Assembly (NCBI GenBank): GCA_907163375.1
Contig: CAJQUW010008698.1
Location: 186,001-250,000, forward strand
DNA length: 64,000 nt
Reading direction: 5' to 3'
Source of the DNA: Prostheceraeus crozeri
Taxonomy: Eukaryota > Platyhelminthes > Polycladida > Euryleptidae
The notes beneath the pieces were generated by a model. It did no database searches. It had not been told where the DNA came from and worked only from the letters and a program-made list of their open reading frames with translations. A program made the translations under genes and the position numbers. Shown piece after piece: positions 8,291 through 31,617 of this stretch (position 1 is the first letter of the stretch; the number at the start of each line of letters is the position of its first letter).

Positions 8291-8719
8291 AAAATCTGTA
8301 GTTAGACTCAGGAATATTACATTCGTCAACACCCCCTTTAGTTATTCGCGAATGTTCTCGCAAAAGTGTATGTAATGGTCGCGTTGCAATTTCAATATAC
8401 ATGCACATGTAGAAATTTTCACATTACTTGTATCATAAAATTGTCAATACTGTCATAATGAAATTGCATTATGCATTTATGTATCACTGTTACAATCTAC
8501 AGTATGTACTGTTGTAATGTAATGATATTACGATTAAGACCTGTAATGCATCACCAGTAGTAACAAAAGGTCCAGAATAAACACAGCGCGCCCCCCCCCC
8601 CTCTGGAACGACAGTGTCGTGGTGTGCCGGCCAGGTTGGTTCCCAACATGTTCGCTGACTCCCCCCCCCCCTCTGCAACGACAGAGTGTGAGACTCGAGT
8701 GAGTGGGTCGGACCGCCTG

Positions 8720-8842
8720 GTTGACTTGGGCGACCGTCCAGGTTGACGTGGGCGACCGTCTAGGTGGACGTGGGCGACCGTCTAGGCTGACGTGGGCGAC
8801 CGTCTAGGCTGACGTGGGCGACCGTCTAGGTTATCGTGGATG
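8720..8842 (+). repeat. TIR minisatellite, about 30-bp unit, left copy
   Basis: There are five consecutive copies of a unit carrying GGGCGACCGTCTAGG followed by TGACGT. The inverted counterpart is at about 30502-30622. Confidence 0.85.
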
Positions 8843-9085
8843 GTGAAATGGCTGCCAGATTCGGATTCAGCGTAAAATTCTGCATCGGTAGGGTGAGTTT
8901 CAAGTCAATCGGCGAGAAAAACTGTTTCTTCAAAATTTTGGCAGAGTTAAAATGTGGGACGTTTTGGTGTGTAGGGCCCAAACGAAGCCTCGGATGAGAA
9001 AACGGAGGCCAGATTCGGAATCTACGTGAAATTTTGGATTAGGAAGGATGTTTCCAGCGAAATCGGAGAGAAAAAATTTTCACTG

Positions 9086-10860
9086 ACGTCCCCCCCCCCC
9101 CTCTGGGCAGCTTGCTTCGATTTTGGCTTCCAGTGGACGGATTTTGTCGTGCGATAGCTCGTTTGAAAGCTAAGAGTGAGACAAATTCACTGAAACAATC
9201 GGCTTGTTCCTATCTGTCTTCGTTTAGATGTGAGACGCCATTTAAGATTTTGGGACATTGGTGAAAAACGACAGAGTTAGAATTTGGGACGTTTTGGGCT
9301 CTAGCTTCAAAACGAAGCATCGGATTGGAAAACGGATTTCAGATTTGGAATCAGCGTAAAATTCTTTATCTGTATGGTGAGTTTCAAGTCAATCGGAGAG
9401 AAAAAATTTTCAACATTTTTCGAAAAAACGACAGAGTTAGAATTTGGGACGTTTTGGTGTGTAGCGTCCAAACGAAGCCTCGGATGAGAAAACGGAGGCC
9501 AGATTCGGAATCTACGTGAAATTTTGGGTTAGGAAGGATGTTTCCAGCGAAATCGGAGAGAAAAAATTTTCACTGACGTCCCCCCCCCCCTGGACAGCTT
9601 GCTTCGATTTTGGCTTCCAGTGGACGGATTTTGTCGTGCGATAGCTCGTTTGAAAGCTAAGAGTAAGACAAATTCAGTGAAACAATCGGCTTGTTCCTAT
9701 CTGTCTTCGTTTAGATGTGAGACGCCATTTAAGATTTTGGGACATTGGCGAAAAACGACAGAGTTAGAATTTGGGACGTTTTGGGCTCTAGCTTCAAAAC
9801 GAAGCATCGGATTGGAAAACGGATTTCAGATTTGGAATCAGCGTGAAATTCTTTATCTGTATGGTGAGTTTCAAGTCAATCGGAGAGAAAAAATTTTCAA
9901 CATTTTTCGAAAAAACGACAGAGTTAGAATTTGGGACGTTTTGGTGTGTAGCGTCCAAACGAAGCCTCGGATGAGAAAACGGAGGCCAGATTCGGAATCT
10001 ACGTGAAATTTTGGGTTAGGAAGGATGTTTCCAGCGAAATCGGAGAGAAAAAATTTTCACTGACGTCCCCCCCCCCCCTCTGGACAGCTTGCTTCGATTT
10101 TGGCTTCCAGTGGACGGATTTTGTCGTGCAATAGCTCGTTTGAAAGCTAAGAGTGAGACAAATTCAGTGAAACAATCGGCTTGTTCCTATCTGTCTTCGT
10201 TCAAAAGTTAGAGCGGTTACAAGATTTTAGGTCGGAGCTCGCTTACCTGAAAAAATCCTAAGTGTCAGACTGACTTTGTATGGGTAAAAATTTGAAAATT
10301 TTCCAAAGTGTGGAATTTCGACCTGGGACCGTCACCAAAACATTTTTCATCAAATTTTGAAATTTCACTGACGTCCCCCCCCCCCCCTCTGGACAGCTTG
10401 CTTCGATTTTGGCTTCTAGTGGACGGATTTTGTCGTGCGATAGCTCGTTTGAAAGCTAAGAGTGAGACAAATTCAGTGAAACAATCGGCTTGTTCCTATC
10501 TGTCTTCGTTCAAAAGTTAGAGCGGTTACAAGATTTTAGGTCGGAGCTCGCTTACCTGAAAAAATCCTAAGTGTCAGAGTGACTTTGTATGGGTAAAAAT
10601 TTGAAAATTTTCCAAAGTGTGGAATTTCGACCTGGGACCGTCACCAAAACATTTTTCATCAAATTTTGAAATTTCACTGACGTCCCCCCCCCCCCCTCTG
10701 GACAGCTTGCTTCGATTTTGGCTTCCAGTGGACGGATTTTGTCGTGCGATAGCTCGTTTGAAAGGTAAGAGTGAGACAAATTCAGTGAAACAATCGGCTT
10801 GTTCCTATCTGTCTTCGTTTAGATGTGAGACGCCATTTAAGATTTTGGGACATTGGTGAA
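9086..10860 (+). repeat. poly-C-headed tandem unit array, left TIR
   Basis: GACGT followed by a run of about 10-12 C starts units at about 9086, 9577, 10063, 10372 and 10681. Spacings are about 490, 487, 309 and 309, so there are long and short unit types. Each unit continues with CAGCTTGCTTCGATTTTGG and a GATAGCTCGTTTGAAAG segment. Apparent ORFs recur unit by unit and differ by unit structure, so I do not call them genes. Confidence 0.85.
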
Positions 10861-11223
10861 AAACGACAGAGTTAGAATTTGGGACGTTTTGGGCTCTAGC
10901 TTCAAAACGAAGCATCGGATTGGAAAGCGGATTTCAGATTTGGAATCAGCGTGAAATTCTTTATCTGTATGGTGAGTTTCATGTCAATCGGAGAGTTTCA
11001 AGTCAATCGGCGAGAAAAATGTTCAACATTTTTCGGAAAAACGACAGAGTTAGAATTTTTGCGATGGCTGCCTACTGTAGAGCCCAAACGAAGCATCGGA
11101 TGGGAAAACGGAGGCCAGATTCGGATTCAGCGTCAAATTCTACATGGAAATGGTGTATTTCCAGCTCAATCGGAGCACTAGAACCGGAGATAGACGGGAT
11201 TTTTAGTGTTTGGATGATGGGTG

Positions 11224-11310
11224 TTACGTCATCAGCTGATCGCCACACACTATATAAGCTGGGAACCGACGGAGACTTGTCATTCAGATGAGAGATTGCC
11301 AACGGTAAGT
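11224..11310 (+). promoter_or_regulatory. inward TIR promoter with 5' splice site, left arm
   Basis: In order: TTACGTCA (bZIP/CREB-like, 11224-11231), CAGCTG E-box (11233-11238), TATATAAG (11251-11258) and, 46 nt after the TATA box, AACG|GTAAGT with the junction at 11304/11305. Spacing fits a Pol II start near 11280-11285, a short leader exon and an intron donor. Transcription would run inward through the structured modules. Confidence 0.65.
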
Positions 11311-11742
11311 CGTCTCTCTGAGCTCCGATGATAGCTTCGGACATTCCAAATTCCGAGTTTCTGTAAGAAACCGACTTCGAAAATTTCATTGCTGATATCA
11401 GCTAAGCCGTCAGACTTAGAGGTTAGCCAGGAGATGGCCTTCGTCTCCAGGCCATAAAAGACTCCAAAACTTTAAAGGCTTGTAACTTTGCTTCTACAAG
11501 TCCGTTTGACTTGATTCAAAAAGGGTTCGGTCGCTATTGACCTGGCCTAAGTGACAGACTACTTATAAAATTTCATAAGTAGTGCTAAAAAGTTGAAAAA
11601 TTTAAATTCACTAGTTTTGGAGGTTTTCTGGGGTTTTCGACCCTGCTGAAGTCAATGAAAGCATTTTTAATAATGTCTGAGCCAGTCTTCTCATGCTATA
11701 AGCGGCTTTTCACTGAAAGCGAGCAAGACACGGAGAGTTTTG

Positions 11743-11915
11743 CTGTAATATTCCACTGACAGGGTGTTCCTTCGGGACGGCGGACGATGCCGTAGTGATA
11801 AGTGTGGCAAGGGAATGTGTCATATTTGAGACCGTAACCGCTGGGGCAACTCATGTTGGGCATTTGACACAGCTCTCAACGTAACACTTTGAACGCCAAT
11901 CGGTTGAGTCTTAGC
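11743..11915 (+). ncRNA. structured RNA-like module c, left arm
   Basis: It starts TGTAATATTCC and has the hairpin GTTCC-TTCG-GGAC at once followed by CGGC-N7-GCCG. Then come GCAAGGG, ACCGTAACC, CATGTTGGGC, CTCAACGT and a GGTTGAGTC end. The same landmarks occur in the same order in modules a and b although the sequence between them differs. The strand is taken from the TIR promoter direction. It matches no RNA family I know. Confidence 0.5.
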
Positions 11916-11974
11916 TATCTTGTCATGGGTGGCCTCTAAACATCTCCATTGCAAAACGCTGGTGAATCAAGCAC

Positions 11975-12340
11975 TCTACGGCTTGCTATCAAGCTGATCA
12001 AAGCAACAACTTGGGATGTTTCCTCAAGGTTTTCAAGTATGCGAAGTTCAAATCTGCTATCAGATTTGAAATTTAACTAAGTCTAAGGCAGCTTTGAGGG
12101 GTTAGATCCCAGCTACTGTTCACTACCTTTGACTCGGCGTTCCTGTTACCACTTCGGGGCAGTGACAATGATGTCTTAAGCTGTAAAGAGCGGGTATCGG
12201 GGAAGATCTCTCACTTCCCTAGTGATCAGTACAAGGCCTTCGGGCTGTCGACGGGATCGAGTGCCACTCACTACACTCAAATCTATCATTCCTCACTAAG
12301 TGTAAATTACTGACTATACATTTGTCCTGCTATCAGGTTA
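11975..12340 (+). ncRNA. hairpin cluster with invariant GCTATC/GATAGC loop, left arm
   Basis: Three hairpins share the loop GCTATC (GATAGC on the other strand) but have different stems: GCTT/AAGC at 11981-11994, TTCAAATCT/AGATTTGAA at 12047-12070 and CCT/AGG at 12326-12337. A fourth, TCTCTT/AAGAGA, follows at 12368-12385 at the head of module a. A related CGTTCCTG...CTTCGGGG stretch at about 12137-12160 looks like a diverged partial module. Confidence 0.55.
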
Positions 12341-12415
12341 TTTTTGACTTGATATCTAGTTGAATAGTCTCTTGCTATCAAGAGATTCACTTCTACTCAT
12401 AAAGCACATCATCGC

Positions 12416-12617
12416 TGTAATACCTCCTTTGCTCGAGCGTTCCTTCGGGACGGCGGGTACTGCCGTAGAGGGATTGTGTTGCACGGGTTGTTCGTCGTTT
12501 GTTAGACCGAAACCTCTGAGCCGTTGCTCATGTTGGGCGTTCGACTTCATACTCAACGTGACGCTTTCTCTCGCCAGGTCAGAGTACTTCAGCCATTCGA
12601 CAAAGGTTAGTCTTTAT
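12416..12617 (+). ncRNA. structured RNA-like module a, left arm
   Basis: It starts TGTAATACCTCC, then GTTCC-TTCG-GGAC, CGGC-N7-GCCG, GCACGGG, ACCGAAACC, a GAGC-CGTT-GCTC hairpin, CATGTTGGGC, CTCAACGT and GACAAAGGTTAGTC. GAGG...CCTC pairing around the middle is replaced by AGTG...CGCT in module c, a compensatory change. It is nearly identical to 27217-27418 and 25099-25300. Both strands are open here, but the frames track the duplicated DNA and look incidental. Confidence 0.5.
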
Positions 12618-12884
12618 GATATGGAGTAGAGTGAAATGTAATTCATTAGATGTCCCTTCAATGATTGCTCCCATGATAAACGTTGATGAGACAAATGAAA
12701 TGATTCTCATCTTCCCTTTTCAATGATTGAAATCTACTAACACACTACCGTATAATCGTCCACTATGGGGCAAGACATGATAGAGCCTCCACGCGGCTTG
12801 CCCTGGGCAGTCTTTAGACTGGTGAATACTATCATTAAGTTGAATCTGTTATCAGTCAACTTGAACGTTGCAAATGAAGTTCGG

Positions 12885-13080
12885 TGTAATACTTCCTTTC
12901 GACGGGTGTTCCTGTAAAGGGCGGCGGTGAAACCCGTAGCTATGTATACCGCAAGGGACATTCGGCAATGGCCAATCTTGTTAAACCTCTCTGCATCATG
13001 TTTGCAAGTGATTGCCGCTATCTCAACGTAGTATGCATTCGCGCCAGGGCGACATTTAGCCAACTGTCGAAGGTTGCCTA
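12885..13080 (+). ncRNA. structured RNA-like module b, left arm
   Basis: This is the most diverged module: TGTAATACTTCC, GTTCCTGTAAAGG, CGG-N9-CCG, GCAAGGGAC, TGTTTGCAAG, CTCAACGTA, CGCCAGGG and GTCGAAGGTTGCC. A GATAAC-loop hairpin (TGATAACAG on the minus strand, near 12845-12856) precedes it. Confidence 0.45.
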
Positions 13081-13334
13081 AAACTTTCCATTGCATACGT
13101 TATGAGAACCATGAGTTCTACCTGTCTCTATCAATGAGACGAATTGATGAATGGAATGAAATGGGAGGACACTCACGCGCCACACGCAACATAACACACT
13201 TCTCTCTTCCGTAGTCTAACAAGCTCTTTACACATGGATCGCAGTCGATTGCTATCCCTGTATCAGAAGTGTAAGCTATCTTAATTTTATTTGACACTAT
13301 TTCATCTATCATCATCGCCCATATGAAATGTTTT

Positions 13335-13765
13335 AAGATTTACAAGTTAGACTAAGCGTTCTACTATTTGTAAATGAAAGATATAGTTTCACCAGTTTAC
13401 AAGTTAAAAAATAAAGTTTCAATGGTGTATACGTTAGAAATAAAGTTTTAGCTGTTTGTATATCAAAATAAAGTTTCAATGGTGTATACGTTAGAAATAA
13501 AGTTTTAGCTGTTTGTATATCAAAATAAAGTTTCAAGAGTTTACAAGTTAGAAATAACGTTTCAATAGTGTATGCGTTAGAAATAAAGTTTTAGCTGTTT
13601 GTATATCAAAATAAAGTTTCAAGAGTTTACAAGTTAGAAATAAAGTTTCAATAGTGTGTATGTTAGAAATTAAGGTATAACTGTTTGTAAAAATAAGATC
13701 GGAAGATTTACTAGTTTACAAGTTTGACTAAGTGTAAATTAAAATAAAATTATAACTGTTCACGA
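13335..13765 (+). repeat. AATAAA-bearing tandem array, left TIR
   Basis: Units of about 30 bp alternate GTTTACAAGTTAGAAATAAAG and TTTGTATATCAAAATAAAG forms. Most units carry AATAAAG on the plus strand, the direction of the inward transcript. Confidence 0.8.
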
Positions 13766-13987
13766 GTTAAAGCGTTGATGCAACGATGAACAATTAATAA
13801 GCTGAAAAGTTTTAGATTCACTTTAACATTACCATATGTTTACAGATAGAAATGTATCACAGCAAAGCTACTTCATGAGTTAGTTTGCCAGGAGTGTATC
13901 ATCTCAAACTTTTACTCCGTCGTTGAAATTTCATGACGACTTTTTGCTAAACGAAAGTTAACACCAGAGGAGCGTAGGGGTGGGTGG

Positions 13988-13994
13988 TATAAAA
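13988..13994 (+). promoter_or_regulatory. TATA box of first plus-strand gene
   Basis: TATAAAA lies just inside the TIR edge, about 120 bases before the first plus-strand ORF of the unique centre. Confidence 0.5.
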
Positions 13995-14464: not shown

Positions 14465-14552
14465 CGGGCGAATGAAGCATCGGTGAGAGTGGGAATCAAC
14501 TTGATTCTATTCTCCAATGAGGATTGTTGTCTAATGAGAATCAAGCATTCCT

Positions 14553-14560
14553 TTATAAAT
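14553..14560 (+). promoter_or_regulatory. TATA box of second plus-strand gene
   Basis: TATAAATA lies about 100 bases upstream of the ATG at 14660 and is followed by a CT-rich leader. Confidence 0.55.
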
Positions 14561-14659
14561 AGAGAGCCTTCCACACTGAGAATCATTCCATCGTTGAATC
14601 GTACAAGTGACGGACGCACATTCTCTCTCTCTCTCTACATCCCTGTTATATTATCCAAC

Positions 14660-15214
14660 ATGAGTGAGGTTCCAGAGTGTGAGGTTCCAGAGTGTGAGGT
14701 ACGTTATCCAATACGTCATTGGAAAGGTAAATTTTGGCAATATCACCGTACCATTCCATTATTTCATGGAGACAAGATAATTTCAGAGACGAAGAACTGT
14801 GTAGTGATATCACGCCGTAAGATAGAATTGGAAAATGAAATAATTCCAACGTATATTGACACATTCTATTTTGAAGTAACACCGACATATCAGCATCCAA
14901 TTACAACAACGGTGGAGAAACCGAAAGACTGTCTTTATTTTGAACGTGATTACATTCCAATGTATGAAGGAGATGTAGTTATATCATGGAATCCTACAGA
15001 AACATGTATTCGACGTTCTCCAGGTAGAAAGCGTGAAGATGGAGGAGGTTTGGCACGGGCTATGTATATAGTATATCAACATACTCCAGAAGTGTATAAA
15101 CGACCGAAATTGACACGACGATTTCGTTTGGATATTGAGAAGAAGGTGTGGGTTCAGATTCTTCATACTGATACATTGACTGACATTGAATGGATGGGTG
15201 GACAAACGAGGTGA
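14660..15214 (+). CDS. unrecognised 184-residue protein
   Basis: I take ATG 14660 as the start because it follows the TATA box at 14553 at a normal distance; the frame is open upstream only with non-ATG starts. The protein begins with a duplicated VPECE motif, from a 15-bp direct repeat in the DNA. It continues with a beta-rich, tyrosine/tryptophan-rich body that includes WKGKFWQYHR and a basic stretch (RRSPGRKREDGG). It ends within sequence that belongs to the next promoter's GGTCCC region. No family is recognised. Confidence 0.6.
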   Translation: MSEVPECEVPECEVRYPIRHWKGKFWQYHRTIPLFHGDKIISETKNCVVISRRKIELENEIIPTYIDTFYFEVTPTYQHPITTTVEKPKDCLYFERDYIPMYEGDVVISWNPTETCIRRSPGRKREDGGGLARAMYIVYQHTPEVYKRPKLTRRFRLDIEKKVWVQILHTDTLTDIEWMGGQTR

Positions 15215-15220
15215 TTTCAG

Positions 15221-15275
15221 GGTCCCCTGAAGGGGACCCATGAAGGGATCGGGTCCTTTGAGAGATGTATATAAG
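15221..15275 (+). promoter_or_regulatory. GGGTCC operator-like motifs and TATA box
   Basis: GGGTCCCCTGAAGGGGACCC (inverted repeat) and ATCGGGTCC precede TATATAAG at 15268-15275. The motif reappears in the other orientation before the next promoter. Confidence 0.5.
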
Positions 15276-15306
15276 AGTGGATGAAATGAGTGTCACAATC
15301 ATAATC

Positions 15307-15546
15307 ATGGTAGAAACAAGAGAAGAGTTGAGAGTAAGGCAGCGTGAGGAGATGAAGACCATCAAACAAATGATTGAAAGATATAAGAGGAGAGCCTATA
15401 AATCGAAGAATCCAGAGAAGATCAGAGAGTGTGAGGACACATGCGACTTTGTGCTGAAAGCGACGATAGTGAGTCATCAACGACAATCAAATTATTGGAG
15501 AGATGGATTGTGGAAGGGACCCGATAGAGGACCCGATACCTTTTAG
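15307..15546 (+). CDS. small basic helical protein, 79 residues
   Basis: The ATG at 15307 is the first one well placed downstream of the TATA box at 15268; two earlier in-frame ATGs would lie at or before the expected transcript start. The body is a strongly charged, helix- or coiled-coil-prone segment (REELRVRQREEMKTIKQMIE) followed by a Lys/Arg-rich part with two cysteines. Its last codons overlap the GGACCCGAT motif block of the next promoter. A nucleic-acid-binding role is possible, but no family is recognised. Confidence 0.5.
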   Translation: MVETREELRVRQREEMKTIKQMIERYKRRAYKSKNPEKIRECEDTCDFVLKATIVSHQRQSNYWRDGLWKGPDRGPDTF

Positions 15547-15597
15547 AGGACCTGATACCTTTTAGAGGACCCGATCCACTAAAAACTGTATATAAAT
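15514..15597 (+). promoter_or_regulatory. GGACCCGAT repeat cluster and TATA box
   Basis: GGACCCGAT or GGACCTGAT occurs four times between 15518 and 15577, two of them followed by ACCTTTTAGA. TATATAAA follows at 15589-15596. It is the inverse of the ATCGGGTCC motif at the previous promoter. Confidence 0.55.
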
Positions 15598-15643
15598 GAC
15601 TTTTGAAATCATTTACTTCATATTTTGACTTGAGCTAGTGAAC

Positions 15644-15973
15644 ATGCCCGACGTAACGATGATCCAACCTTTACGGATTCGCATTCCCGAAGTGTTAGTG
15701 CCAGAGAGCGACGAGGAAGACTGGCCAACTGATCTTCCGTCTGGATGGGGATCGTGGCCCGATTTGAGTGAATTGACTGATGAAGGACTTCCAGAGTTGG
15801 TGACGCCTACCCCGATGGACAATCTTCCTCCAAGGTTTTCACCAGACATTACACAGTTGGATAGATTTTTAAATTCACCATCTTCCAGTCGGACGAATTT
15901 TAGTGAAATGGCGGATGAAGAATGCTACATCAAAACGCAAATCAAAGAAGGAGAATTACTAGTCCTTTCCTAA
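15644..15973 (+). CDS. acidic small protein, 109 residues
   Basis: The ATG at 15644 lies about 50 bases after the TATA box. The product is acidic and proline-rich, with ESDEEDWPTDLP near residue 25 and LSELTDEGLPELV near 45, then a Ser-rich C-terminal part. Acidic, aromatic-spotted segments like these occur in transcriptional activators, but this is inference only. A Cys/His-rich frame overlaps its 3' end in another phase, so an unseen splice may join the two. Confidence 0.5.
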   Translation: MPDVTMIQPLRIRIPEVLVPESDEEDWPTDLPSGWGSWPDLSELTDEGLPELVTPTPMDNLPPRFSPDITQLDRFLNSPSSSRTNFSEMADEECYIKTQIKEGELLVLS

Positions 15974-16122
15974 CTCTACCCTATGACAATTCGCTTATGT
16001 GCTTTGAGTGTCGCAGACGTGGTCTTATTAGATACATTTTACTTCTTCGTTGCCATCATATCATTTGTGTATTTTGTCGTGAAAAGCATCGATGTAATTC
16101 TTCATTTTATAATATGTTATAG
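15970..16122 (+). CDS. RING-like Cys/His protein or exon
   Basis: The frame encodes CFEC, about 15 residues, then CHHIICVFC, then a further cysteine (REKHRC). The order C-x2-C ... C-x-H-x2-C-x2-C ... C resembles a RING finger (usually an E3 ubiquitin ligase domain), but one of the usual last cysteines is missing unless supplied by a downstream exon. The ATG at 15997 is available; the frame also runs upstream over the previous ORF. The element's small genes are packed here and splice links are unresolved. Confidence 0.45.
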   Translation, partial: LTLPYDNSLMCFECRRRGLIRYILLLRCHHIICVFCREKHRCNSSFYNML

Positions 16123-16156
16123 AACGCTTCCTTAGATGTGTAAATTTCCGTTTTAG

Positions 16157-16705
16157 GCTTCTATCATCATTTTTATGGATTGTGAGGGTGAACCTGTACA
16201 GGAGCTCAGTGCTATTGCTATGAACAATTGGACATATCAGATTGTCAGTGTCTATCATCAACATGCCAACTGCGATCCCAATGTTGATCAATGGGCGAGA
16301 AAACACATTCATGGACTTAATCTGAAATATTTGCAAGACTATGGCTTTTCTTGTGAGAGTGCTCTTCTTATTGACTTTAAACGATGGTTAGCTGCTTTCA
16401 ATGTTATACGCATCTTTTGTAATAATCCTGGTAAGGAGAGGAAAGTATTTCCCAATCTAATCATTGATGATATTTTGCTCCCGCCTTGGGATAGTAGAGT
16501 GAATCAACATTATCATGAAGTCACGAAACGTTTTAAGGATTTGTGTGTTCCTATTTTGTCTGTTCGTTGTAGTAGCTACGTTCATAACCAATGCTTCTTT
16601 CCTCCTTACCTCAACACTGCCAAAGTCCTGTATGGTTATCATTGCTCTCTGTATGATAGTTACCAGCTGTATCTATTTTATCTCTTTCAAACCATTGATT
16701 TATAA
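16157..16705 (+). CDS. DEDDh 3'-5' exonuclease-like protein
   Basis: A good 3' splice site (TTTCCGTTTTAG) precedes 16157. The frame then reads a hydrophobic strand ending in M-D-C-E-G, matching the Exo I DxE motif of DEDDh exonucleases. Counting from the ATG at 16175 (176 residues), Asp98/Asp99 could supply Exo II. HCSLYD at 156-161 matches the Exo III HxxxxD signature and is followed by SYQLYLFY. The middle has a PNLIIDDILLPPW block. Such enzymes trim 3' ends of DNA or RNA, and here one would act beside the element's own polymerase. The upstream exon is not identified, so the true start may lie earlier. An AATAAA follows at about 16725. Confidence 0.6.
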   Translation, partial: ASIIIFMDCEGEPVQELSAIAMNNWTYQIVSVYHQHANCDPNVDQWARKHIHGLNLKYLQDYGFSCESALLIDFKRWLAAFNVIRIFCNNPGKERKVFPNLIIDDILLPPWDSRVNQHYHEVTKRFKDLCVPILSVRCSSYVHNQCFFPPYLNTAKVLYGYHCSLYDSYQLYLFYLFQTIDL

Positions 16706-16860
16706 TGCATGCTTGTTACCATTATTCAATAAATGTTACTATGAGAAGAGTTGTTGTTTTCATGCAATGGATGGGTTAGATAAAGGGTGATCATATCTTT
16801 TTCAAAGGACTGTGGAACATTGATTTCCATGATGAGGATTATAACAGTTAGATTTGATGA

Positions 16861-18540
16861 TGAATAAGATTTACTAGTTTGCAAGTTAGACTAAGCGTTC
16901 TATTATTTGTAAATGAAAGATATAGTTTCAATAGTTTACACGTTAAAAATAAAGTTTCAATAGTGTGTATGTTAAGAATAAAGTTCTATCTGTTTGTATG
17001 TTAGAAATAAAATGAAGTTTCATCAGTTTACAAGTTAAGAATAAAGTTTTATCTGTTTGTATGTTAGAAATAAAACAAAGTTTCAACCGTTAACAAGTTA
17101 AAAATAAAGTTTCAATAGTTTACAAGTTAAAAATAAAGTTTCAATAGTGTATATGTTAAGAATAAAGTTCTATCTGCTTCTATGTTAGAAATAAAAATGA
17201 AGGTTCACCAGTTTACAAGTTAAGAATAAAGTTTTATCTGTTTGTGTGTTAGACATAAAACAAAGTTTCAACCGTTAACAAGTTAAAAATAAAGTTTCAG
17301 ATTAAAATAAAGTTTCAATAGTGTGTATGATGGAAATAAAGTTTAAGCGCTTTGTGCGTTAAAAATAAAGTTTCAACATTGTGTACGTTAAGAATAAAGT
17401 TCTATCTGTTTATATGTTAGAAATAAAAATGAAGGTTCATCAGTTTACAAGTTAAGAATAAAGTTTTATCTGCTTGTATGTCAGAAATGAAATAAAGTTT
17501 CACCAGTTTAAAAGTTAAGAATAAAGTTTCAATAGTGTGTATGATAAGAATATAGTTCTATCTGTTTATATGTTAGAAATAAAATGAAGTTTCGTCAGTT
17601 TACAAGTTAAGAATACATTTTATCTGTTTGTATGTTAGAAATAAAATGAAGTTTCAACCGTTAACAAGTTAAAAATAAAGTTTCAATAGTTTACAAGTTA
17701 AAACTAATGTTTCAATAGTGCGTATGTTAAGAATAAAGTTTTATCTGTTTCTATGTTAGAAATAAAAAACCGGTTTCAACCGTATACAAGTTAAAAATAA
17801 AGTTTCAATAGTTAACACGTTAAAAATAAAGTTTCAACAGTGTATATGTTAAGAATAAAGTTCTATCTGCTTCTATGTTAGAAATAAAAATGAAGGTTCA
17901 CCAGTTTACAAGTTAAGAATAAAGTTTTATCTGTTTGTGTGTTAGACATAAAACAAAGTTTCAACCGTTAACAAGTTAAAAATAAAGTTTCAGATTAAAA
18001 TAAAGTTTCAATAGTGTGTATAATGGAAATAAAGTTTAAGCGCTTTGTGCGTTAAAAATAAAGTTTCAACATTGTGTACGTTAAGAATAAAGTTCTATCT
18101 GTTTATATGTTAGAAATAAAAATGAAGGTTCATCAGTTTACAAGTTAAGAATAAAGTTTTATCTGCTTGTATGTCAGAAATGAAATAAAGTTTCACCAGT
18201 TTAAAAGTTAAGAATAAAGTTTCAATAGTGTACCTGTTAAGAATAAAGTTCTATTTGTTTATATGTTAGAAATAGAATGAAGTTTCGCCGGTTTACAAGT
18301 TACGAATAAAGTTCTATCTGTTTAAGTTTGTAAGTTAAGAATAAAGTTCTATCTGTTTGTATGTTAGAAATGAAGTTTTATCTGTTTGTATGCTAGAAAT
18401 AAAGTTTCATCAGTTTCCATATTAAAAAATAAAGTTTTTAGCAGTTTACAAGTTAAAAATAGAGTTTTAATAGTGTATGCGTTAGAAATAGAGTTTTAGC
18501 CTTTGTATGCTAGAAATAAAGGTATAGCTATTTGTAAAAT
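16861..18540 (+). repeat. central AATAAA-bearing tandem array
   Basis: About 1.7 kb of imperfect units of 25-35 bp, such as AGTTAAGAATAAAGTTTTATC and GTATGTTAGAAATAAA. My hand count gives about 45 AATAAA hexamers, all on the plus strand. A stretch of about 390 bp recurs inside it (about 17140-17530 and 17838-18225). It lies directly 3' of the plus-strand gene cluster. Units match those in both TIRs. Confidence 0.85.
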
Positions 18541-18554
18541 AATAAATATTGTAA

Positions 18555-18767
18555 GTGATTAGCATATTTCGTTTGCTGAGAGAAGGTGTTCCGCCTGTTA
18601 GTGTTGGTGTATTAATATTGAAGAATTTGGTAGTATCTGTTCAATTGAAGACTATAATGGTTCTAGCAAATATTAAAAACAGCAGCCATTATATAATTTA
18701 TGAAACTGAACCCTTTCCTGCTGCTCTCATTCGAGTGGTATCCTATACATATTACCATCCTTCATAA
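18555..18767 (+). CDS. small ORF with weak TATA-binding-protein-like similarity
   Basis: The frame has no early ATG and may be a 3' exon. LKNLVVSV, QLKTIMVLA and EPFPAALIRV occur in order. In the TBP fold repeat the corresponding positions read LQNIV.TV, LKTIAL.A and ..FAAVIMRI or FPGLIYRM. The spacing needs one deletion and one insertion and only one half-repeat is present, so the match is suggestive only. It ends at TAA 18765, with an AATAAA shortly after (about 18802). Confidence 0.3.
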   Translation: MISIFRLLREGVPPVSVGVLILKNLVVSVQLKTIMVLANIKNSSHYIIYETEPFPAALIRVVSYTYYHPS

Positions 18768-18769
18768 CG

Positions 18770-19150
18770 GACATTGTATCATAACAAGCTTATGTGACTT
18801 CAATAAAGTATCACGGATTGTTAAATTCCTAATGTGTTATCTGTTTAATGTATAGCTAATGGAGGCATGTTAAACGTTGAGTTTTTCCTTCATTCACTGA
18901 CGACTCATCATATGAATGAGTTAAGGTGAAAACGGTATGCATCATCACTTTGACTGACAAAGGAATGCACACGCACTGAATGGGGAAAGATCAGGCTGTC
19001 AATAAGGATGAATAGAATCTTATCGAATGGTCTGACATCTACGACAATGAGGTGGATCCATTTTTAGACATGGGTTATCGCTTTGTCTGATATGAAAACG
19101 TTCACACGCTCGCATATTCAGCTGTGAATATAATTTACTATTGCTATTTT
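18770..19150. other. interval without clear gene
   Basis: One short frame (EWSDIYDNEVDPFLDMGYRF, near 19027-19086) has a protein-like look but no convincing splice donor. Nothing else is supported. Confidence 0.35.
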
Positions 19151-19152
19151 TA

Positions 19153-19433
19153 GTGACTATCTTTACAAGAAGAATGACAGTGATGTAAGCAACATGCTTC
19201 CTAAGCTGAATAGAGCTGTTTGTATTATTCTATTAGACATGTCGTTTAGCAAATCGGCGATACAACGATGTTGCCCACCTGTTAGAAAAATTAGTACAAG
19301 CGAGTTATGTGAAGTGTTACTTGATGATGCAAAGATACATCACATTTCATTTTTGATTGAAAATCAAAGTGCTCCTCTGAAACTGGGCGATGACATTCAT
19401 TGTCAATTGAGTGAAAATTTGATAAAACTGTAG
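19153..19433 (+). CDS. unrecognised exon/ORF
   Basis: A pyrimidine-rich acceptor (GCTATTTTTAG) precedes 19153. The frame is open from there (DYLYKKNDSD...), through ATG 19194, to a TAG at 19431. It includes a CC-containing segment and SELCEVLLDDAKIHHISFLI. No family is recognised. The next ORF starts seven bases after this stop. Confidence 0.45.
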
Positions 19434-19440
19434 TTTTTCA

Positions 19441-19773
19441 ATGCTACAAACTGTGTTTACTGCTGCGCATACGATTGGTATAGAAACACCAATGACACTT
19501 GATAAACATGAACAGCACCTTTACATTCAAAGTGATTTGATTCTACCTATTTCTGTTGGCGAGAAAAAAGAATACATTTTACGTGATTTCATTCATGATA
19601 AAGACGCTTCATATGGAATAGTCGAGAAGATGTTTGAATCTATTTTCTATCATCCCGTCATCAAACAAACTATACCCTCTATTGCTATCAAAATTACCAA
19701 TGGTTTACAAGAGTGCATCCATGTGAAAGATACTAAATCCCTCATAACGTTAGTGTTTCGGAAAACAAAGTGA
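19441..19773 (+). CDS. unrecognised 110-residue protein
   Basis: The ATG at 19441 lies seven bases past the preceding stop, in another frame. This suggests a dicistronic message, a hidden splice or a frameshift joining the two. The product has a mixed alpha/beta look (HLYIQSDLILPISVGEKKEY, SITLVF-type end) and no recognisable motif. AATAAA follows at about 19796. The gene converges on the polymerase gene, whose stop is at 19959. Confidence 0.5.
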   Translation: MLQTVFTAAHTIGIETPMTLDKHEQHLYIQSDLILPISVGEKKEYILRDFIHDKDASYGIVEKMFESIFYHPVIKQTIPSIAIKITNGLQECIHVKDTKSLITLVFRKTK

Positions 19774-19958: not shown

Positions 19959-22900
19959 TTACACGTCTCCTGAATGTGGTAGTGTGAGTTTAATTCTTTT
20001 GAGTGGTGGTATGTTTGTGTCAGGATGTCCATGTGGAAGAGATATGTTGTGTTCTAACCAGCACCTCTTATCCTCCCATGCAGAAAGCGCCCGTTTCCTA
20101 AAAGTATGAGTTTTGATCTCATGCGACTTAGATTTTAAGATTGTCATATTGACAAACGTTATATTTTTATTTCTATAGGCTTTCCTGAAATTCTTATGTT
20201 TCATGTTAGAGACCAATGATCTTGATATGCCTTTAGCACGCTTAATACTATCGTCGCTATCCTTTAATTTCATACTGTACATTTTTGGACGGAGGAGAAT
20301 CATTTCATCTATTTCCTTCCCTGCTGTCTCATCCTTAAAGCAGCCAAGTTTTGCCTTATTTTTGATGGAGTAGAGTGGGTGATCAGTAGGATAATTTGAT
20401 GTATCAAAATATCTTTCTAAAGATTTTCCTACTTCATTGAAATTTAAATCTTTTTGAGTGGTAATACCTAAGAAGAAACTATCTGTATCACCACCCAACA
20501 AACGAACCTCTTTTACGAGAGGAGATGGTTTTAGTATTTTATAAAAGAGTTGGTACATTTCAAGCTTAGAGTAATCTAGTACAGCTTGACCAATATAGAT
20601 GGGCTTGCACAACTCAACTTCAGATTTTATCATTTTAACACCTACAAGGTCCTCATCGATAATGTCTCTATCGATGAATAGAGGTGATGAGACCAATTTG
20701 TGATACTTTTGATCATCATTAACTAGTTTATAGTTTACACGTTTTCTAACATCCTCCATCGTCTTACCAAATAGACTATTATTCTTATATTTATAAAAAT
20801 CTTTTTCAAAATTATTTTGGGCTAGTGCACGTTTCTGGCTGTTGCTATCAATATATGGTTTGAGGAAGGCTTTCTGTCTAAATTTAATAATGCGGTGAAC
20901 TCTTTTTAAAATCATACCCATTTCTAAATAAAATTTTAAGATGCTAAAGTGGACTAGATAGTTTTCCTTATCATACTGGGTGAGTAAAAGTTTGCGGCAA
21001 GGCTTATAGTCGGGTTGACCGCATGATTCTAAATCTTTATGAAATTGTTTCATAAAGTCGGAAAACATATCTTTACTCACTTCACCTGATTCGGGTGCGA
21101 GTGGAAAATCTACGGTTTTATGTTTAATATTATTTGGATAGATTAGATCTATCTCAAAATAATATCCCCAATCACCTTCATCTGGAATTGCTAGTATGTT
21201 GGAAGGGTTGGAGAAATGTTGAATTTCACTATCATCTAACCAGCTAAACTCAGAGTGAGGTAGCGGTTTGGATAATGAACTACCATACAAATTATTTTGG
21301 TCATAGTACTTTAGGTGGATATGATCATCACCTACTGTTTCAGATTTTATATGATGTTTATTTACAAATGTGAGACCACCGCGTATTCCGCGCTCAAATA
21401 TATTATACATCTCCGGGTCTTGTAAGAGATGAATGGTCTCACCAGTCATTTTAAAAGCAGACTTAAATGACATGGCTGGTAGACTGACAAAGTGGACGGG
21501 ATCTAACTTATCTTCTTCTAATGCCACTCGTCGAAACTCCTGAAAGACATCAGCCAGCAAAAATACATCTAACTTAAGGTAGGCAATCATATATTCGCCA
21601 AATGTATGACAGTCAAATTTTATCCATGCATCTTGTGCATGATCATAATCTTCGGCCTTACATTCTGCGCCGGTCAAATCATTTTTAAATTTATCTATGG
21701 GCGGAAGAGAAGTCTCGTCGAGTTTACTAATCGCATCAAAATATGCATATGGAAAGACTCCTTTCCGTGTGATGACTTCATCGGTTAGATTTGGGTATTG
21801 TTTCTTAAGATTTTGTGTTAGTGGAAGAGACTTTAGATTTTGTACGAGAGAGGCCAGTGATGCAGTCATAAATTGGTAGGAATCTAAAAATTTTATATCA
21901 AAATAGACCGTCTTATTTTCTTTAGTTTTATCGACAGGTACTTTTGCTGTCATGGCCATAAACTTCTCTCTCGTTTGTGCTATTACATCAAGCTTCCACT
22001 CTTTCATTTGACCTAAACCTCCTTTTATTATCATATGGCTGTCGTAGCCCTTAAAATTATGGAAAATGACGGGTAATGTACGCCGTTTCATCCTCAGTGA
22101 AAAATTGCATTTTGAACATAGTGCGTTTCTAAATTTACCAGTGATGTGATCATGGTCGCGCACTTTCTTAATCTTATCATCATCAAATGTTTTACTACAT
22201 TTGGGGCAAACGTTGCAACTATCAAATTTTGCTTGATCATCTGCTGTCATATGCAATGATCTGCGATAGAGTTCACCATCATACTTTTGTTGAAATTTGA
22301 CAGCCTGTTCGAGGAATTGTAGGAATTGGTAAATACAATCCTCACCTTGCCAGACGTGCATTTTATTTTTTCTATTTTGGAAATGGTCATGCCATACTTC
22401 ATAGCAGGAAATGGCTGCTGGCTTGTGGATGATATCATCGATATAGCATTCGATGTCAGCATAGATGACACGCAGGGGACTTAGTTCATCACCATTCTCT
22501 CTATATGAAAACTCCTTATCTTTGGGCATGCGCTCTATTTGTAGTTTACCCCGCTTGCACCATTCATAATGACTTAGAAATTTATTTTTCGACCAAAATG
22601 GTCGTGTGCAGCGGTCGCATATAAAATGTTCACCTTTAATCGATTTTTGTATATGGTTGTAAAGGCGATGAATTTTTGGAATGCCACAGTAATGCCACTG
22701 TTGAGTATTGTCCTCATATACTAGCAAAAGGTTGACAACTCGATCATAGCTACTTTGGCGGTTGTTATACCTAACGCCTTTTAACCCTTTCTCCCAGACG
22801 TGAACCACTATCTTAATTTTATTTAATTTCTCAAATTTCTCTATATCTTTCAATTTCATGTCTTCACTATTACAGTCATCAAACTTCAATTCATTTTCCC

Positions 22901-23737
22901 ACTCTTGATATTTACTTCTACGGAAACGATTATCACTTACATCATTGTAGTGGAGAATGGATAACACTGCATACTTAAAACATTGCGATTCGCAATCTAC
23001 AGAAATGACTGCTTTTTTGTCTTTTAAAATTTTTGGAAGATTGAAGGAGCCTCGCCCACTATAACTTTCTAGCAAATTGATTTTAAACTTGGCAGATTCT
23101 ATACCATCAAAAATGAGGCCACTATCGCGTTCGTTGAATTTAACTATATTTAGTTTTAGTCCTTGGATATGAAAATTTAACCAAGAATCTTCATCGATTA
23201 CTTCTGTAGCAGGAGAGGAGGGTATGTGAAACTCCAACCGCTCTACTATTTGACCAGTATGATGATCGATTTTTACATATTTTATTTTTAAGTAGATGAG
23301 CGCTTTTATTCTAAAGTTGTCTAAATTTCTAAAGAGCGCATCTATCAAGGATGAATTTTGATGAAACCACTTTTCAAAGTTAGCGATGGTTTCTGAGGAG
23401 TCCATCTGGTAGTTCCTCACTAAATTGTTCATTGATATTTCAGAGAGTCGGATAGAGGAGGTACCGTTGGTGTAGGTATCGTTCGTGTGTGTATGTCGAA
23501 GTCTATGTGAAGATAATTCAAAATGTGACTCAAATGATTGAATGCAGAAGTCGCAAGTAAAGGAGACGTGTTCAATAGAGTCATCCTCACCTCGGGAGAT
23601 TGATGGCGACTTGGGTTGACACACACGTTGTCTGATGTGTCGGAGCAGATCGCGTTTCCTCGTGAAGATGTGCCCACAGTCAGCACATTCCCGCTCGTCG
23701 CCTTCCCGCGATAGTGTTGAGCTGGAACTAGCATCAC
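19959..23737 (-). CDS. family-B DNA polymerase, main exon
   Basis: The last exon of the element's polymerase gene gives residues 213-1471 of the model. Two CxxC zinc fingers lie near 230-252 and 274-294. A Cys-His hydrolase-like (OTU-type) segment follows (Cys near 465, WHYCGI near 560), then a third finger near 586-606. Exo I YADIEC is near 638-643. An endonuclease-VII-like insert (HDHITGK plus CxxCN) is near 723-756. Exo II FHNFKGYD is near 771-778 and Exo III YLKLD near 932-936. Pol motifs follow: A (YYDQNNLYG, near 1023-1031), B (NNSLFGK, near 1198-1204), C (GGDTDS, near 1294-1299) and KMYSM (near 1364). All catalytic residues are present and no stop interrupts the frame. Related polymerases occur in Polintons, adintoviruses and bidnaviruses. 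The exon starts after TTTCTCTTTTAG; the in-frame ATG at 23753 lies in the intron. Confidence 0.93.
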
Positions 23738-23796
23738 CTAAAAGAGAAATCATTCTATCATCTCTATTAAAGTCTTAGCGTTTTGTTACAACTTAC

Positions 23797-25870: not shown

Positions 25871-26094
25871 TCTAACTATTTAAATCTTCATCATGGAAAT
25901 CAATGTTCCACAGTCGGAGTAAAAGTTTGAGATGATACACTCCTGGCAAACTAACTCATGAAGTAGCTTTGCTGTGATACATTTCTATCTGTAAACATAT
26001 GATAATGTCAAAGTGAATCTAAAACTTTCCAGCTTATTAATTGTTCATCGTTGCATCAACGCTTTAACTCGTGAACAGTTATAATTTTATTTTA

Positions 26095-26505
26095 ATTTAC
26101 ACTTAGTCAAACTTGTAAACTAGTAAATCTTCCGATCTTATTTTTACAAACAGTTATACCTTAATTTCTAACATACACACTATTGAAACTTTATTTCTAA
26201 CTTGTAAACTCTTGAAACTTTATTTTGATATACAAACAGCTAAAACTTTATTTCTAACGCATACACTATTGAAACGTTATTTCTAACTTGTAAACTCTTG
26301 AAACTTTATTTTGATATACAAACAGCTAAAACTTTATTTCTAACGTATACACCATTGAAACTTTATTTTGATATACAAACAGCTAAAACTTTATTTCTAA
26401 CGTATACACCATTGAAACTTTATTTTTTAACTTGTAAACTGGTGAAACTATATCTTTCATTTACAAATAGTAGCACGCTTAGTCTAACTTGTAAATCTTA
26501 AAACA
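26095..26505 (-). repeat. AATAAA-bearing tandem array, right TIR
   Basis: This is the inverted copy of the left array. AATAAA lies on the minus strand, again in the direction of inward transcription. Confidence 0.8.
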
Positions 26506-26753
26506 TTTCATATGGGCGATGATGATAGATGAAATAGTGTCAAATAAAATTAAGATAGCTTACACTTCTGATATAGGGATAGCAATCGACTGCGATCCAT
26601 GTGTAAAGAGCTTGTTAGACTACGGAAGAGAGAAGTGTGTTATGTTGCGTGTGGCGCGTGAGTGTCCTCCCATTTCATTCCATTCATCAATTCGTCTCAT
26701 TGATAGAGACAGGTAGAACTCATGGTTCTCATAACGTATGCAATGGAAAGTTT

Positions 26754-26949
26754 TAGGCAACCTTCGACAGTTGGCTAAATGTCGCCCTGGCGCGAATGCA
26801 TACTACGTTGAGATAGCGGCAATCACTTGCAAACATGATGCAGAGAGGTTTAACAAGATTGGCCATTGCCGAATGTCCCTTGCGGTATACATAGCTACGG
26901 GTTTCACCGCCGCCCTTTACAGGAACACCCGTCGAAAGGAAGTATTACA
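26754..26949 (-). ncRNA. structured RNA-like module b, right arm
   Basis: This is the reverse complement of the left module b. It is read toward the polymerase gene. Confidence 0.45.
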
Positions 26950-27216
26950 CCGAACTTCATTTGCAACGTTCAAGTTGACTGATAACAGATTCAACTTAAT
27001 GATAGTATTCACCAGTCTAAAGACTGCCCAGGGCAAGCCGCGTGGAGGCTCTATCATGTCTTGCCCCATAGTGGACGATTATACGGTAGTGTGTTAGTAG
27101 ATTTCAATCATTGAAAAGGGAAGATGAGAATCATTTCATTTGTCTCATCAACGTTTATCATGGGAGCAATCATTGAAGGGACATCTAATGAATTACATTT
27201 CACTCTACTCCATATC

Positions 27217-27418
27217 ATAAAGACTAACCTTTGTCGAATGGCTGAAGTACTCTGACCTGGCGAGAGAAAGCGTCACGTTGAGTATGAAGTCGAACGCCCA
27301 ACATGAGCAACGGCTCAGAGGTTTCGGTCTAACAAACGACGAACAACCCGTGCAACACAATCCCTCTACGGCAGTACCCGCCGTCCCGAAGGAACGCTCG
27401 AGCAAAGGAGGTATTACA
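27217..27418 (-). ncRNA. structured RNA-like module a, right arm
   Basis: This is the reverse complement of the left module a. Its GATAGC-loop hairpin lies at 27449-27466 and another at 27497-27508. Confidence 0.5.
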
Positions 27419-27763
27419 GCGATGATGTGCTTTATGAGTAGAAGTGAATCTCTTGATAGCAAGAGACTATTCAACTAGATAGCAAGTCAAAAATAACCTG
27501 ATAGCAGGACAAATGTATAGTCAGTAATTTACACTTAGTGAGGAATGATAGATTTGAGTGTAGTGAGTGGCACTCGATCCCGTCGACAGCCCGAAGGCCT
27601 TGTACTGATCACTAGGGAAGTGAGAGATCTTCCCCGATACCCGCTCTTTACAGCTTAAGACATCATTGTCACTGCCCCGAAGTGGTAACAGGAACGCCGA
27701 GTCAAAGGTAGTGAACAGTAGCTGGGATCTAACCCCTCAAAGCTGCCTTAGACTTAGTTAAAT

Positions 27764-27853
27764 TTCAAATCTGATAGCAGATTTGAACTTCGCATACTTG
27801 AAAACCTTGAGGAAACATCCCAAGTTGTTGCTTTGATCAGCTTGATAGCAAGC
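27764..27853 (-). ncRNA. GATAGC-loop hairpin pair, right arm
   Basis: Two hairpins, 27764-27787 (nine-pair stem TTCAAATCT/AGATTTGAA) and 27840-27853 (GCTT/AAGC), carry the same six-base loop. They mirror the left arm. Confidence 0.55.
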
Positions 27854-27919
27854 CGTAGAGTGCTTGATTCACCAGCGTTTTGCAATGGAGATGTTTAGAG
27901 GCCACCCATGACAAGATAG

Positions 27920-28090
27920 CTAAGACTCAACCGATTGGCGTTCAAAGTGTTACGTTGAGAGCTGTGTCAAATGCCCAACATGAGTTGCCCCAGCGGTTAC
28001 GGTCTCAAATATGACACATTCCCTTGCCACACTTATCACTACGGCATCGTCCGCCGTCCCGAAGGAACACCCTGTCAGTGGAATATTACA
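27920..28090 (-). ncRNA. structured RNA-like module c, right arm
   Basis: This is the reverse complement of the left module c. It is the first module downstream of the right promoter. Confidence 0.5.
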
Positions 28091-28523
28091 GCAAAACTCT
28101 CCGTGTCTTGCTCGCTTTCAGTGAAAAGCCGCTTATAGCATGAGAAGACTGGCTCAGACATTATTAAAAATGCTTTCATTGACTTCAGCAGGGTCGAAAA
28201 CCCCAGAAAACCTCCAAAACTAGTGAATTTAAATTTTTCAACTTTTTAGCACTACTTATGAAATTTTATAAGTAGTCTGTCACTTAGGCCAGGTCAATAG
28301 CGACCGAACCCTTTTTGAATCAAGTCAAACGGACTTGTAGAAGCAAAGTTACAAGCCTTTAAAGTTTTGGAGTCTTTTATGGCCTGGAGACGAAGGCCAT
28401 CTCCTGGCTAACCTCTAAGTCTGACGGCTTAGCTGATATCAGCAATGAAATTTTCGAAGTCGGTTTCTTACAGAAACTCGGAATTTGGAATGTCCGAAGC
28501 TATCATCGGAGCTCAGAGAGACG

Positions 28524-28610
28524 ACTTACCGTTGGCAATCTCTCATCTGAATGACAAGTCTCCGTCGGTTCCCAGCTTATATAGTGTGTGGCGATCAGCT
28601 GATGACGTAA
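28524..28610 (-). promoter_or_regulatory. inward TIR promoter with 5' splice site, right arm
   Basis: This is the mirror image of the left promoter: TGACGTAA at 28603-28610, the TATA box complement at 28576-28583 and the donor complement ACTTAC at 28524-28529. It points toward the polymerase gene and could give it an alternative leader. Confidence 0.65.
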
Positions 28611-28979
28611 CACCCATCATCCAAACACTAAAAATCCCGTCTATCTCCGGTTCTAGTGCTCCGATTGAGCTGGAAATACACCATTTCCATGTAGAATTTG
28701 ACGCTGAATCCGAATCTGGCCTCCGTTTTCCCATCCGATGCTTCGTTTGGGCTCTACAGTAGGCAGCCATCGCAAAAATTCTAACTCTGTCGTTTTTTCG
28801 AAAAATGTTGAACATTTTTCTCGCCGATTGACTTGAAACTCTCCGATTGACATGAAACTCACCATACAGATAAAGAATTTCACGCTGATTCCAAATCTGA
28901 AATCCGCTTTCCAATCCGATGCTTCGTTTTGAAGCTAGAGCCCAAAACGTCCCAAATTCTAACTCTGTCGTTTTTCACC

Positions 28980-30260
28980 AATGTCCCAAAATCTTAAATG
29001 GCGTCTCACATCTAAACGAAGACAGATAGGAACAAGCCGATTGTTTCACTGAATTTGTCTCACTCTTACCTTTCAAACGAGCTATCGCACGACAAAATCC
29101 GTCCACTGGAAGCCAAAATCGAAGCAAGCTGTCCAGAGGGGGGGGGGGGGACGTCAGTGAAATTTCAAAATTTGATGAAAAATGTTTTGGTGACGGTCCC
29201 AGGTCGAAATTCCACACTTTGGAAAATTTTCAAATTTTTACCCATACAAAGTCACTCTGACACTTAGGATTTTTTCAGGTAAGCGAGCTCCGACCTAAAA
29301 TCTTGTAACCGCTCTAACTTTTGAACGAAGACAGATAGGAACAAGCCGATTGTTTCACTGAATTTGTCTCACTCTTAGCTTTCAAACGAGCTATCGCACG
29401 ACAAAATCCGTCCACTAGAAGCCAAAATCGAAGCAAGCTGTCCAGAGGGGGGGGGGGACGTCAGTGAAATTTCAAAATTTGATGAAAAATGTTTTGGTGA
29501 CGGTCCCAGGTCGAAATTCCACACTTTGGAAAATTTTCAAATTTTTACCCATACAAAGTCAGTCTGACACTTAGGATTTTTTCAGGTAAGCGAGCTCCGA
29601 CCTAAAATCTTGTAACCGCTCTAACTTTTGAACGAAGACAGATAGGAACAAGCCGATTGTTTCACTGAATTTGTCTCACTCTTAGCTTTCAAACGAGCTA
29701 TTGCACGACAAAATCCGTCCACTGGAAGCCAAAATCGAAGCAAGCTGTCCAGAGGGGGGGGGGGACGTCAGTGAAAATTTTTTCTCTCCGATTTCGCTGG
29801 AAACATCCTTCCTAACCCAAAATTTCACGTAGATTCCGAATCTGGCCTCCGTTTTCTCATCCGAGGCTTCGTTTGGACGCTACACACCAAAACGTCCCAA
29901 ATTCTAACTCTGTCGTTTTTTCGAAAAATGTTGAAAATTTTTTCTCTCCGATTGACTTGAAACTCACCATACAGATAAAGAATTTCACGCTGATTCCAAA
30001 TCTGAAATCCGTTTTCCAATCCGATGCTTCGTTTTGAAGCTAGAGCCCAAAACGTCCCAAATTCTAACTCTGTCGTTTTTCACCAATGTCCCAAAATCTT
30101 AAATGGCGTCTCACATCTAAACGAAGACAGATAGGAACAAGCCGATTGTTTCAGTGAATTTGTCTCACTCTTAGCTTTCAAACGAGCTATCGCACGACAA
30201 AATCCGTCCACTGGAAGCCAAAATCGAAGCAAGCTGCCCAGAGGGGGGGGGGGACGTCAG
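28980..30260 (-). repeat. poly-G-headed tandem unit array, right TIR
   Basis: This is the inverted counterpart of the left array. G-runs followed by ACGTCAGTGAAA start near 29138, 29449, 29754 and 30243. One long unit is missing relative to the left arm. Confidence 0.85.
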
Positions 30261-30501
30261 TGAAAATTTTTTCTCTCCGATTTCGCTGGAAACATCCTTC
30301 CTAATCCAAAATTTCACGTAGATTCCGAATCTGGCCTCCGTTTTCTCATCCGAGGCTTCGTTTGGGCCCTACACACCAAAACGTCCCACATTTTAACTCT
30401 GCCAAAATTTTGAAGAAACAGTTTTTCTCGCCGATTGACTTGAAACTCACCCTACCGATGCAGAATTTTACGCTGAATCCGAATCTGGCAGCCATTTCAC
30501 C

Positions 30502-30622
30502 ATCCACGATAACCTAGACGGTCGCCCACGTCAGCCTAGACGGTCGCCCACGTCAGCCTAGACGGTCGCCCACGTCCACCTAGACGGTCGCCCACGTCAA
30601 CCTGGACGGTCGCCCAAGTCAA
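30502..30622 (-). repeat. TIR minisatellite, right copy
   Basis: This is the reverse complement of the left minisatellite, with the same number of CGGTCGCCCACGTC-type units. Confidence 0.85.
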
Positions 30623-31617
30623 CCAGGCGGTCCGACCCACTCACTCGAGTCTCACACTCTGTCGTTGCAGAGGGGGGGGGGGGAGTCAGCGAACATGTTG
30701 GGAACCAACCTGGCCGGCACACCACGACACTGTCGTTCCAGAGGGGGGGGGGGACTCAGACCCGAAGGACCACGGCGGCCGACCACGACACTCTGCCGTT
30801 CCAGAGGGGGGGGGGGGGCGCCGGTCGAGTGTTTGTCATTTGCTTACTACTATCACCGATTTGTTTCTTTGATCTACTAGCAGGCCTACATGTATTTTCA
30901 CAATCCACATTCACATACTTTGTGTTTGATAAGCGTGTGACTTCGTGCTCGCGAACTAGGTAGCCATTTCCGAAGAAATAAACTTCTGTAATCAACATGA
31001 CTTCACACAAGAGAGCTCGATTGAAACAGCAGACACCCCACTTTATGACAACATCACCGCTCTGCTGGATGAGGGCAAATGTGCAGATGCCGTCTTCCTA
31101 GATTTCTGCCGAGGATTAGATAGTGTACCTCACCACTGATCTCCATCGGCTCCTTTGTCTCGCCATTGTCGCACATTCCGACAACGGTATGCCGGTCCAT
31201 TCCTTGGCGTGGTTACTCCACCGGTTCTTTTGTCTACTTCTTGTTCTCTAGCCATCGATTCGTCTTATGATGTGAGTACTGATATTCCTTTCCCTGATCA
31301 CGTGGCCAACATGCTGCAGCTTCCGTTGTTGAACGATCATTATCAACTCCCGCCGAGTCCCCAAATCCCGAAATATTGAAGTTCGGAGTTGGGTCTACTT
31401 AAGCTTAATTTGTTTCCTATCTATGTTAATAAAGATCTTTTATATAGGCTCACAATGAGTATCAACGACAAGCTAGGTGACCAAAGAGTGAAGTCATGCT
31501 AGAATGAGGGACGACCCTCGGAAGAAGAGTAGAGACTTGTCGTGTCAGTACAGCAGGGATAACAATTAACAACAATGAAATTAAATAAACGATAGATCAA
31601 ATTGCCATGCAAAAGAT

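Follow-up and report, generated by a model that had tools for sequence, protein, structure and literature searches.

A probable internally deleted Polinton/Maverick derivative with long inverted arms and a predicted DEDDh-fold exonuclease in the flatworm Prostheceraeus crozeri

In the genome of the polyclad flatworm Prostheceraeus crozeri, a unit of about 22 kb combines a family-B DNA polymerase (PolB) with long terminal inverted repeats (TIRs), which raises the question to which class of element it belongs. The unit lies in the window analysed here, a stretch of 64,000 nucleotides (assembly GCA_907163375.1, contig CAJQUW010008698.1, positions 186,001 to 250,000 of the forward strand). According to the original prediction, it matches no known element class and might represent a new lineage or a plasmid.

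The borders of the element could be read directly and place it at 8556..30851, with AGTAGTAA at 8556 as the left end and TTACTACT, finishing at 30851, as the right end; each of these 8-mers occurs once in the 64-kb window. The target-site duplication ATCACC was read directly on the left (8550..8555) and on the right (30852..30857) side. The borders predicted earlier (8588-30821) located the element correctly, but left out some 30 bases on either side. The left TIR (8556..13930, plus strand, 5375 nt) opens with AGTAGTAA and contains tandem arrays, the right TIR (25902..30851, minus strand, 4950 nt) closes with TTACTACT, and together with the ATCACC duplication these arms and ends bear out the predicted ~22-kb unit with TIRs of about 5 kb. 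The arms are 100% complementary over 3552 nt in one stretch; they differ in a tandem unit of ~487 bp, of which the left arm contains more copies than the right, and in the bases immediately inside the termini. Linear plasmids likewise possess a PolB and long inverted ends, and end joining that trapped a linear plasmid or a viral genome in the chromosome would fit this part of the structure. Such a capture is extremely improbable, however, as perfect 6-bp duplications are present at the window copy and also at two relatives: C802 (1360841-1385270; 24,430 bp), which has AGTAGTAAGC ends and GATACT duplicated on both sides, and C116, a palindromic relative of 21,337 bp with AATATC on both sides. 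In the available text of PMC8097293, vertebrate Mavericks are defined by (AG)3//(CT)3 or (AGT)2//(ACT)2 ends and perfect 6-bp duplications; the ends of the window element, AGTAGTAA...TTACTACT, fit the (AGT)2//(ACT)2 form.

Palindromic long reads can give inverted contigs, and the inverted arms could therefore be suspected to be an assembly artefact. The central 800 bp of the relative C146 (L047, C146:54287-55086) are their own reverse complement and have no match to the element stretches compared; the contig ends close by, so that a fold-back assembly artefact is possible there. For the window element this explanation is extremely unlikely, since its flanks differ and yet share the ATCACC duplication, and since neither the number of tandem copies nor the bases just inside the termini are the same in both arms. 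Unless it is a fold-back introduced by the assembly, the centre of the C146 palindrome marks the apex of a copy-back form; C116 is the safer palindrome case owing to its 6-bp duplication, its reading covering the element outside the central 7 kb. In C116, C514 and C146, two exonuclease copies per element were observed in inverted orientation; the repeat arms of these three relatives thus include the exonuclease gene. At the left inner junction of the window element (13750-14350), all 40 scored genome places matched over the full length with 100% identity, and 22 of them form 11 inverted converging pairs, which are 7.9-12.2 kb apart; these are the best 40 of 1124 candidates, and because only the best candidates were scored, the genome copy counts given here and below are lower bounds biased to the most similar copies.

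PolB is encoded at 19962..23774 on the minus strand, and endonuclease VII-like and C2H2 domains were recognised within it by Pfam; DNA_pol_B_2 did not match at E 0.5 or better. The gene is a single uninterrupted stop-to-stop frame of 1271 amino acids and splicing is therefore not needed, which leaves the polymerase of the original prediction intact but not spliced. Its catalytic polymerase and exonuclease motifs vary little or not at all among 20 aligned proteins. The plus strand carries a 249-aa ORF (14465..15211), of which the relatives examined retain no more than about 50 residues, two small ORFs of 94 and 114 amino acids (15262..15970), a Cys/His-rich, RING-like ORF of 67 amino acids (15919..16119) and an exonuclease gene (16157..16702). 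The 67-aa ORF, reported earlier as RING-like, shows 85-98% identity across 11 loci in relatives; its assignment as RING is weak (PF14634, E 0.078, below the cut-off of that family). For the 94-aa ORF, a sub-threshold similarity to Cpf1_PI (E 0.0013) was taken as chance. Pfam searches of 10 ORFs outside the arms revealed no integrase, ATPase, protease or capsid, and a tblastn search of the whole window with 18 proteins of relatives recovered pieces of only two, the other 16 giving no match at E 1e-3; the reported absence of integrase, packaging ATPase, protease and capsid genes from the window copy hence holds. As regards the features of Polintons/Mavericks, the window copy has the end type, the perfect 6-bp duplication ATCACC, TIRs and a PolB, and it lacks the rve integrase, double-jelly-roll capsid, packaging ATPase and protease; without integrase and capsid, it does not qualify as an autonomous member.

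The missing genes sit in relatives of the same genome at the corresponding place between the exonuclease and PolB. Collinearity of the window with these relatives reaches to 16821 and resumes at about 18612. In the deletion region (16821..18612), the morphogenesis block is replaced by a tandem array of ~29-bp units (16916-18521), which resembles the arrays of the element's own arms. The left break at 16821 lies about 30 nt inside a 139-aa ORF of the relatives. On the right, remnants of their TBP-like ORF (18612..18843, plus strand, 36-45% amino acid identity) and of the C-terminal part of their 519-aa ORF (19326..19770, plus strand, the last 112 residues 98% identical) are convergent with PolB, the same arrangement as in C315. 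A new self-replicating PolB class that never had an integrase or capsid, possibly the simple form from which the capsid-bearing relatives descend, would account for the lack of these genes in the unit and for the multicopy state of the deleted form. This is highly improbable and already contradicted by the gap edges, where C-terminal remnants of two of the relatives' genes and a piece of some 30 nt from a third are found; the Maverick ends and the 6-bp duplication also argue against it. With a probability of about 0.9, the element is an internally deleted, non-autonomous Polinton/Maverick derivative of the adintovirus-like animal kind that has lost integrase and capsid and retained PolB, because Maverick ends with a 6-bp duplication, gene-bearing relatives in the same genome and gene remnants in the window occur together. 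The rve integrase is absent from the window and present in relatives, and the element is thus filed as a deleted derivative rather than an autonomous member; on the same evidence, the view that it matches no known class and represents a new lineage or plasmid had to be abandoned.

The deleted form is present in many copies. At the right deletion joint (18480-19300), all 40 scored genome places, the best of 1060 candidates, are full length and 99-100% identical. Among 36,229 candidates for PolB, the best 37 are 98-100% identical and 35 of these are stop-free; 21 of the 37, including the window copy, adjoin a listed right deletion joint, at a distance of 662 bp in the window and of 786-788 bp in the other 20. 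The open frames of these near-identical copies may reflect youth and not selection. In a sibling deleted copy, C11182, the right end is of the Maverick type and the flanking DNA is unlike that of the window; the left end of this copy was not found where the window layout predicts it, and since that stretch has no similarity to the window, its left arm differs from that of the window element.

The integrase of the relatives is of the rve type and carries a C-terminal chromodomain. It was found with 406 amino acids, stop-free and 100% identical at 102 of 102 scored places (the best of 27,364 candidates); on the five contigs C86, C1191, C609, C772 and C1118, an identical exonuclease is found at a distance of 2621-2622 bp from it. 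A double-jelly-roll capsid protein was recognised by its predicted fold, and ATPase-like and protease-like ORFs gave profile matches only below the cut-offs. Searches of PHROGs and PDB sequences with the capsid, the ATPase-like protein, the exonuclease and other ORFs yielded nothing or weak matches judged to be chance. The top match of the capsid model in the viral library BFVD was R9XLG5 (25% identity), an uncharacterised protein filed under Cotesia bracovirus, which is perhaps a captured Maverick capsid gene. In C315 (L041:3122-3823), a TBP-like protein (PF00352, 3.7e-19) matches in two stretches and overlaps a 220-aa ORF in another frame; a Maverick-like element here encodes a transcription factor of viral type. 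Genome-wide, a second set of PolB genes matches Pfam DNA_pol_B_2 (176 matches, many with open frames of about 1,200 amino acids), and other Maverick-like families probably share the genome with the window element. Beyond the right border of the element, the window contains a protein kinase domain (35089-35952, minus strand; PF00069, 9.9e-39), which is probably part of a host gene, and fragments of a non-LTR-type reverse transcriptase (39418-40667, plus strand; RVT_1, 7.2e-20).

Comparison of the window PolB with five capsid-lineage loci (L022, L028, L034, L038, L040) gave a dS of 0.88-0.91 and a dN of 0.11 from pairwise alignments containing 23-30 frame-shifting gaps, and the protein has thus been constrained over the span that separates the window from these loci. 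A frame of 1273 amino acids was found in three of eight right-hand loci checked. Outside the flatworm, the first 83 PolB matches (44-93% identity) are metagenome contigs of about 3-21 kb, and organism-named matches, at 30-35%, come from arthropods and a coral. Viral contigs and phage records contained no PolB relative at the sensitivity used, and a PDB sequence search with PolB gave no matches. For the proteins matching PolB (75%), exonuclease (58%) and capsid (76%), the length given for the longest contig is in each case exactly 21,290 bases, which suggests a single complete relative. Close PolB and capsid relatives (P0021, P0152) are filed under Pseudomonadota metagenome-assembled genomes; these are probably misbinned eukaryotic or viral contigs.

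The predicted structure of the 182-aa product of 16157..16702 (plus strand) supports the DEDDh exonuclease-like gene of the original prediction: the model has an RNase H-like exonuclease fold with a pLDDT of 93.6. By its own E-value order, Foldseek placed ERI2, ERI3 and ExoX at the top and also matched 3'hExo, with no arenaviral chain among the best 50 matches. Structural realignment with VIA, in contrast, ranks arenaviral chains first, whereby five of the first 23 rows are titled merely "NP exonuclease" and were counted as arenaviral by assumption. Two signatures resemble the arenavirus nucleoprotein: D-x-E-G, with D in 20/20, E in 24/24 and G in 22/24 of the rows reaching those columns, and H-C-x3-D, with H and C in all 27 family members and the last D in 26. 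The Cys of the latter corresponds to the Cys that follows H528 in the arenaviral protein. Conserved in the alignment columns of the exonuclease rows are also E16 (25/25), C138 and H143 (27/27 each) and C163, which may be counterparts of the ligands of the arenaviral zinc site. The source text available for the arenaviral nucleoprotein lists D389, E391, G392, H528 and D533 as exonuclease residues, and that of PMC10535676 describes a zinc site beside the active site. A search of PDB chains with the exonuclease profile gave six matches up to E 10 (best E 0.23), none of them arenaviral, and a Pfam scan of the 27 members recognised RNase_T in four and the arenaviral family in none; recognisable sequence homology to the arenavirus nucleoprotein was hence not found in these searches. 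A dN of 0 among exonuclease copies was discarded as a sign of selection, because the copies had been picked by protein identity. The literature search found no work joining the arenavirus nucleoprotein exonuclease with polintons, and no DEDDh protein among the best-ranked Maverick/Polinton papers.

The most likely activity of the predicted enzyme is the trimming of nucleic acid at 3' ends; the preferred guess is that its substrate is dsRNA arising where transcription converges and that it serves as a counter-defence, and an alternative role would be DNA end processing. The deleted derivative would use its PolB for protein-primed replication in the form of linear DNA, and its long arms may go back to copy-back synthesis or to an exchange of ends while it replicates. 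The deletion may have arisen at AT-rich tandem arrays, and the integrase of intact relatives could insert the element by acting in trans on the shared ends; intact relatives probably move it. As a broader and rather doubtful scenario, a Maverick-type virus invading an animal genome might yield deleted and copy-back palindromic defectives, which its own integrase inserts as a large and fresh chromosomal archive; virus and defectives would both retain an exonuclease resembling that of the arenavirus nucleoprotein, able to destroy dsRNA and to weaken RNA-based defence. If the exonuclease destroys dsRNA as the arenaviral enzymes do, this would suggest that elements and host are in conflict at the RNA level. 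The claimed new element class is removed; what the genome offers instead is no fewer than 102 intact integrase genes of this family, all identical, together with deleted and palindromic forms that are present in multiple copies and whose ends can be read. Maverick replication, movement in trans and defective-genome formation thereby become testable. According to the accessible text of PMC8097293, Maverick particles had not been observed.

Compared with known systems, the element shares (AGT)2//(ACT)2 ends, a 6-bp duplication, TIRs and PolB with Polintons/Mavericks, and its relatives have rve integrase and capsid; the window copy differs by the absence of integrase, capsid, ATPase and protease, by arms of about 5 kb, by the additional exonuclease and by a PolB without a DNA_pol_B_2 match. 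Adintoviruses are defined, in the available text of PMC11071296, by an integrase with a C-terminal chromodomain, a PolB with an N-terminal OTU-like domain and a BLASTp-recognisable hexon; the rve integrase of the relatives carries such a chromodomain, whereas the window copy has no integrase and no hexon. The exonuclease is unusual, and so is the freshness of the deleted and palindromic derivatives as a set. The 182-aa protein has the D-x-E-G and H-C-x3-D signature of the arenavirus nucleoprotein exonuclease domain, with 15-19% identity and no sequence-profile link, and, unlike this domain, it is a stand-alone protein within a DNA element and has a conserved Glu at the probable second acidic motif. 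Linear DNA viruses yield copy-back or end-duplicated defective genomes, and the palindromic derivatives described here resemble these in having the same sequence at both ends; unlike them, the forms found here are integrated in chromosomes.
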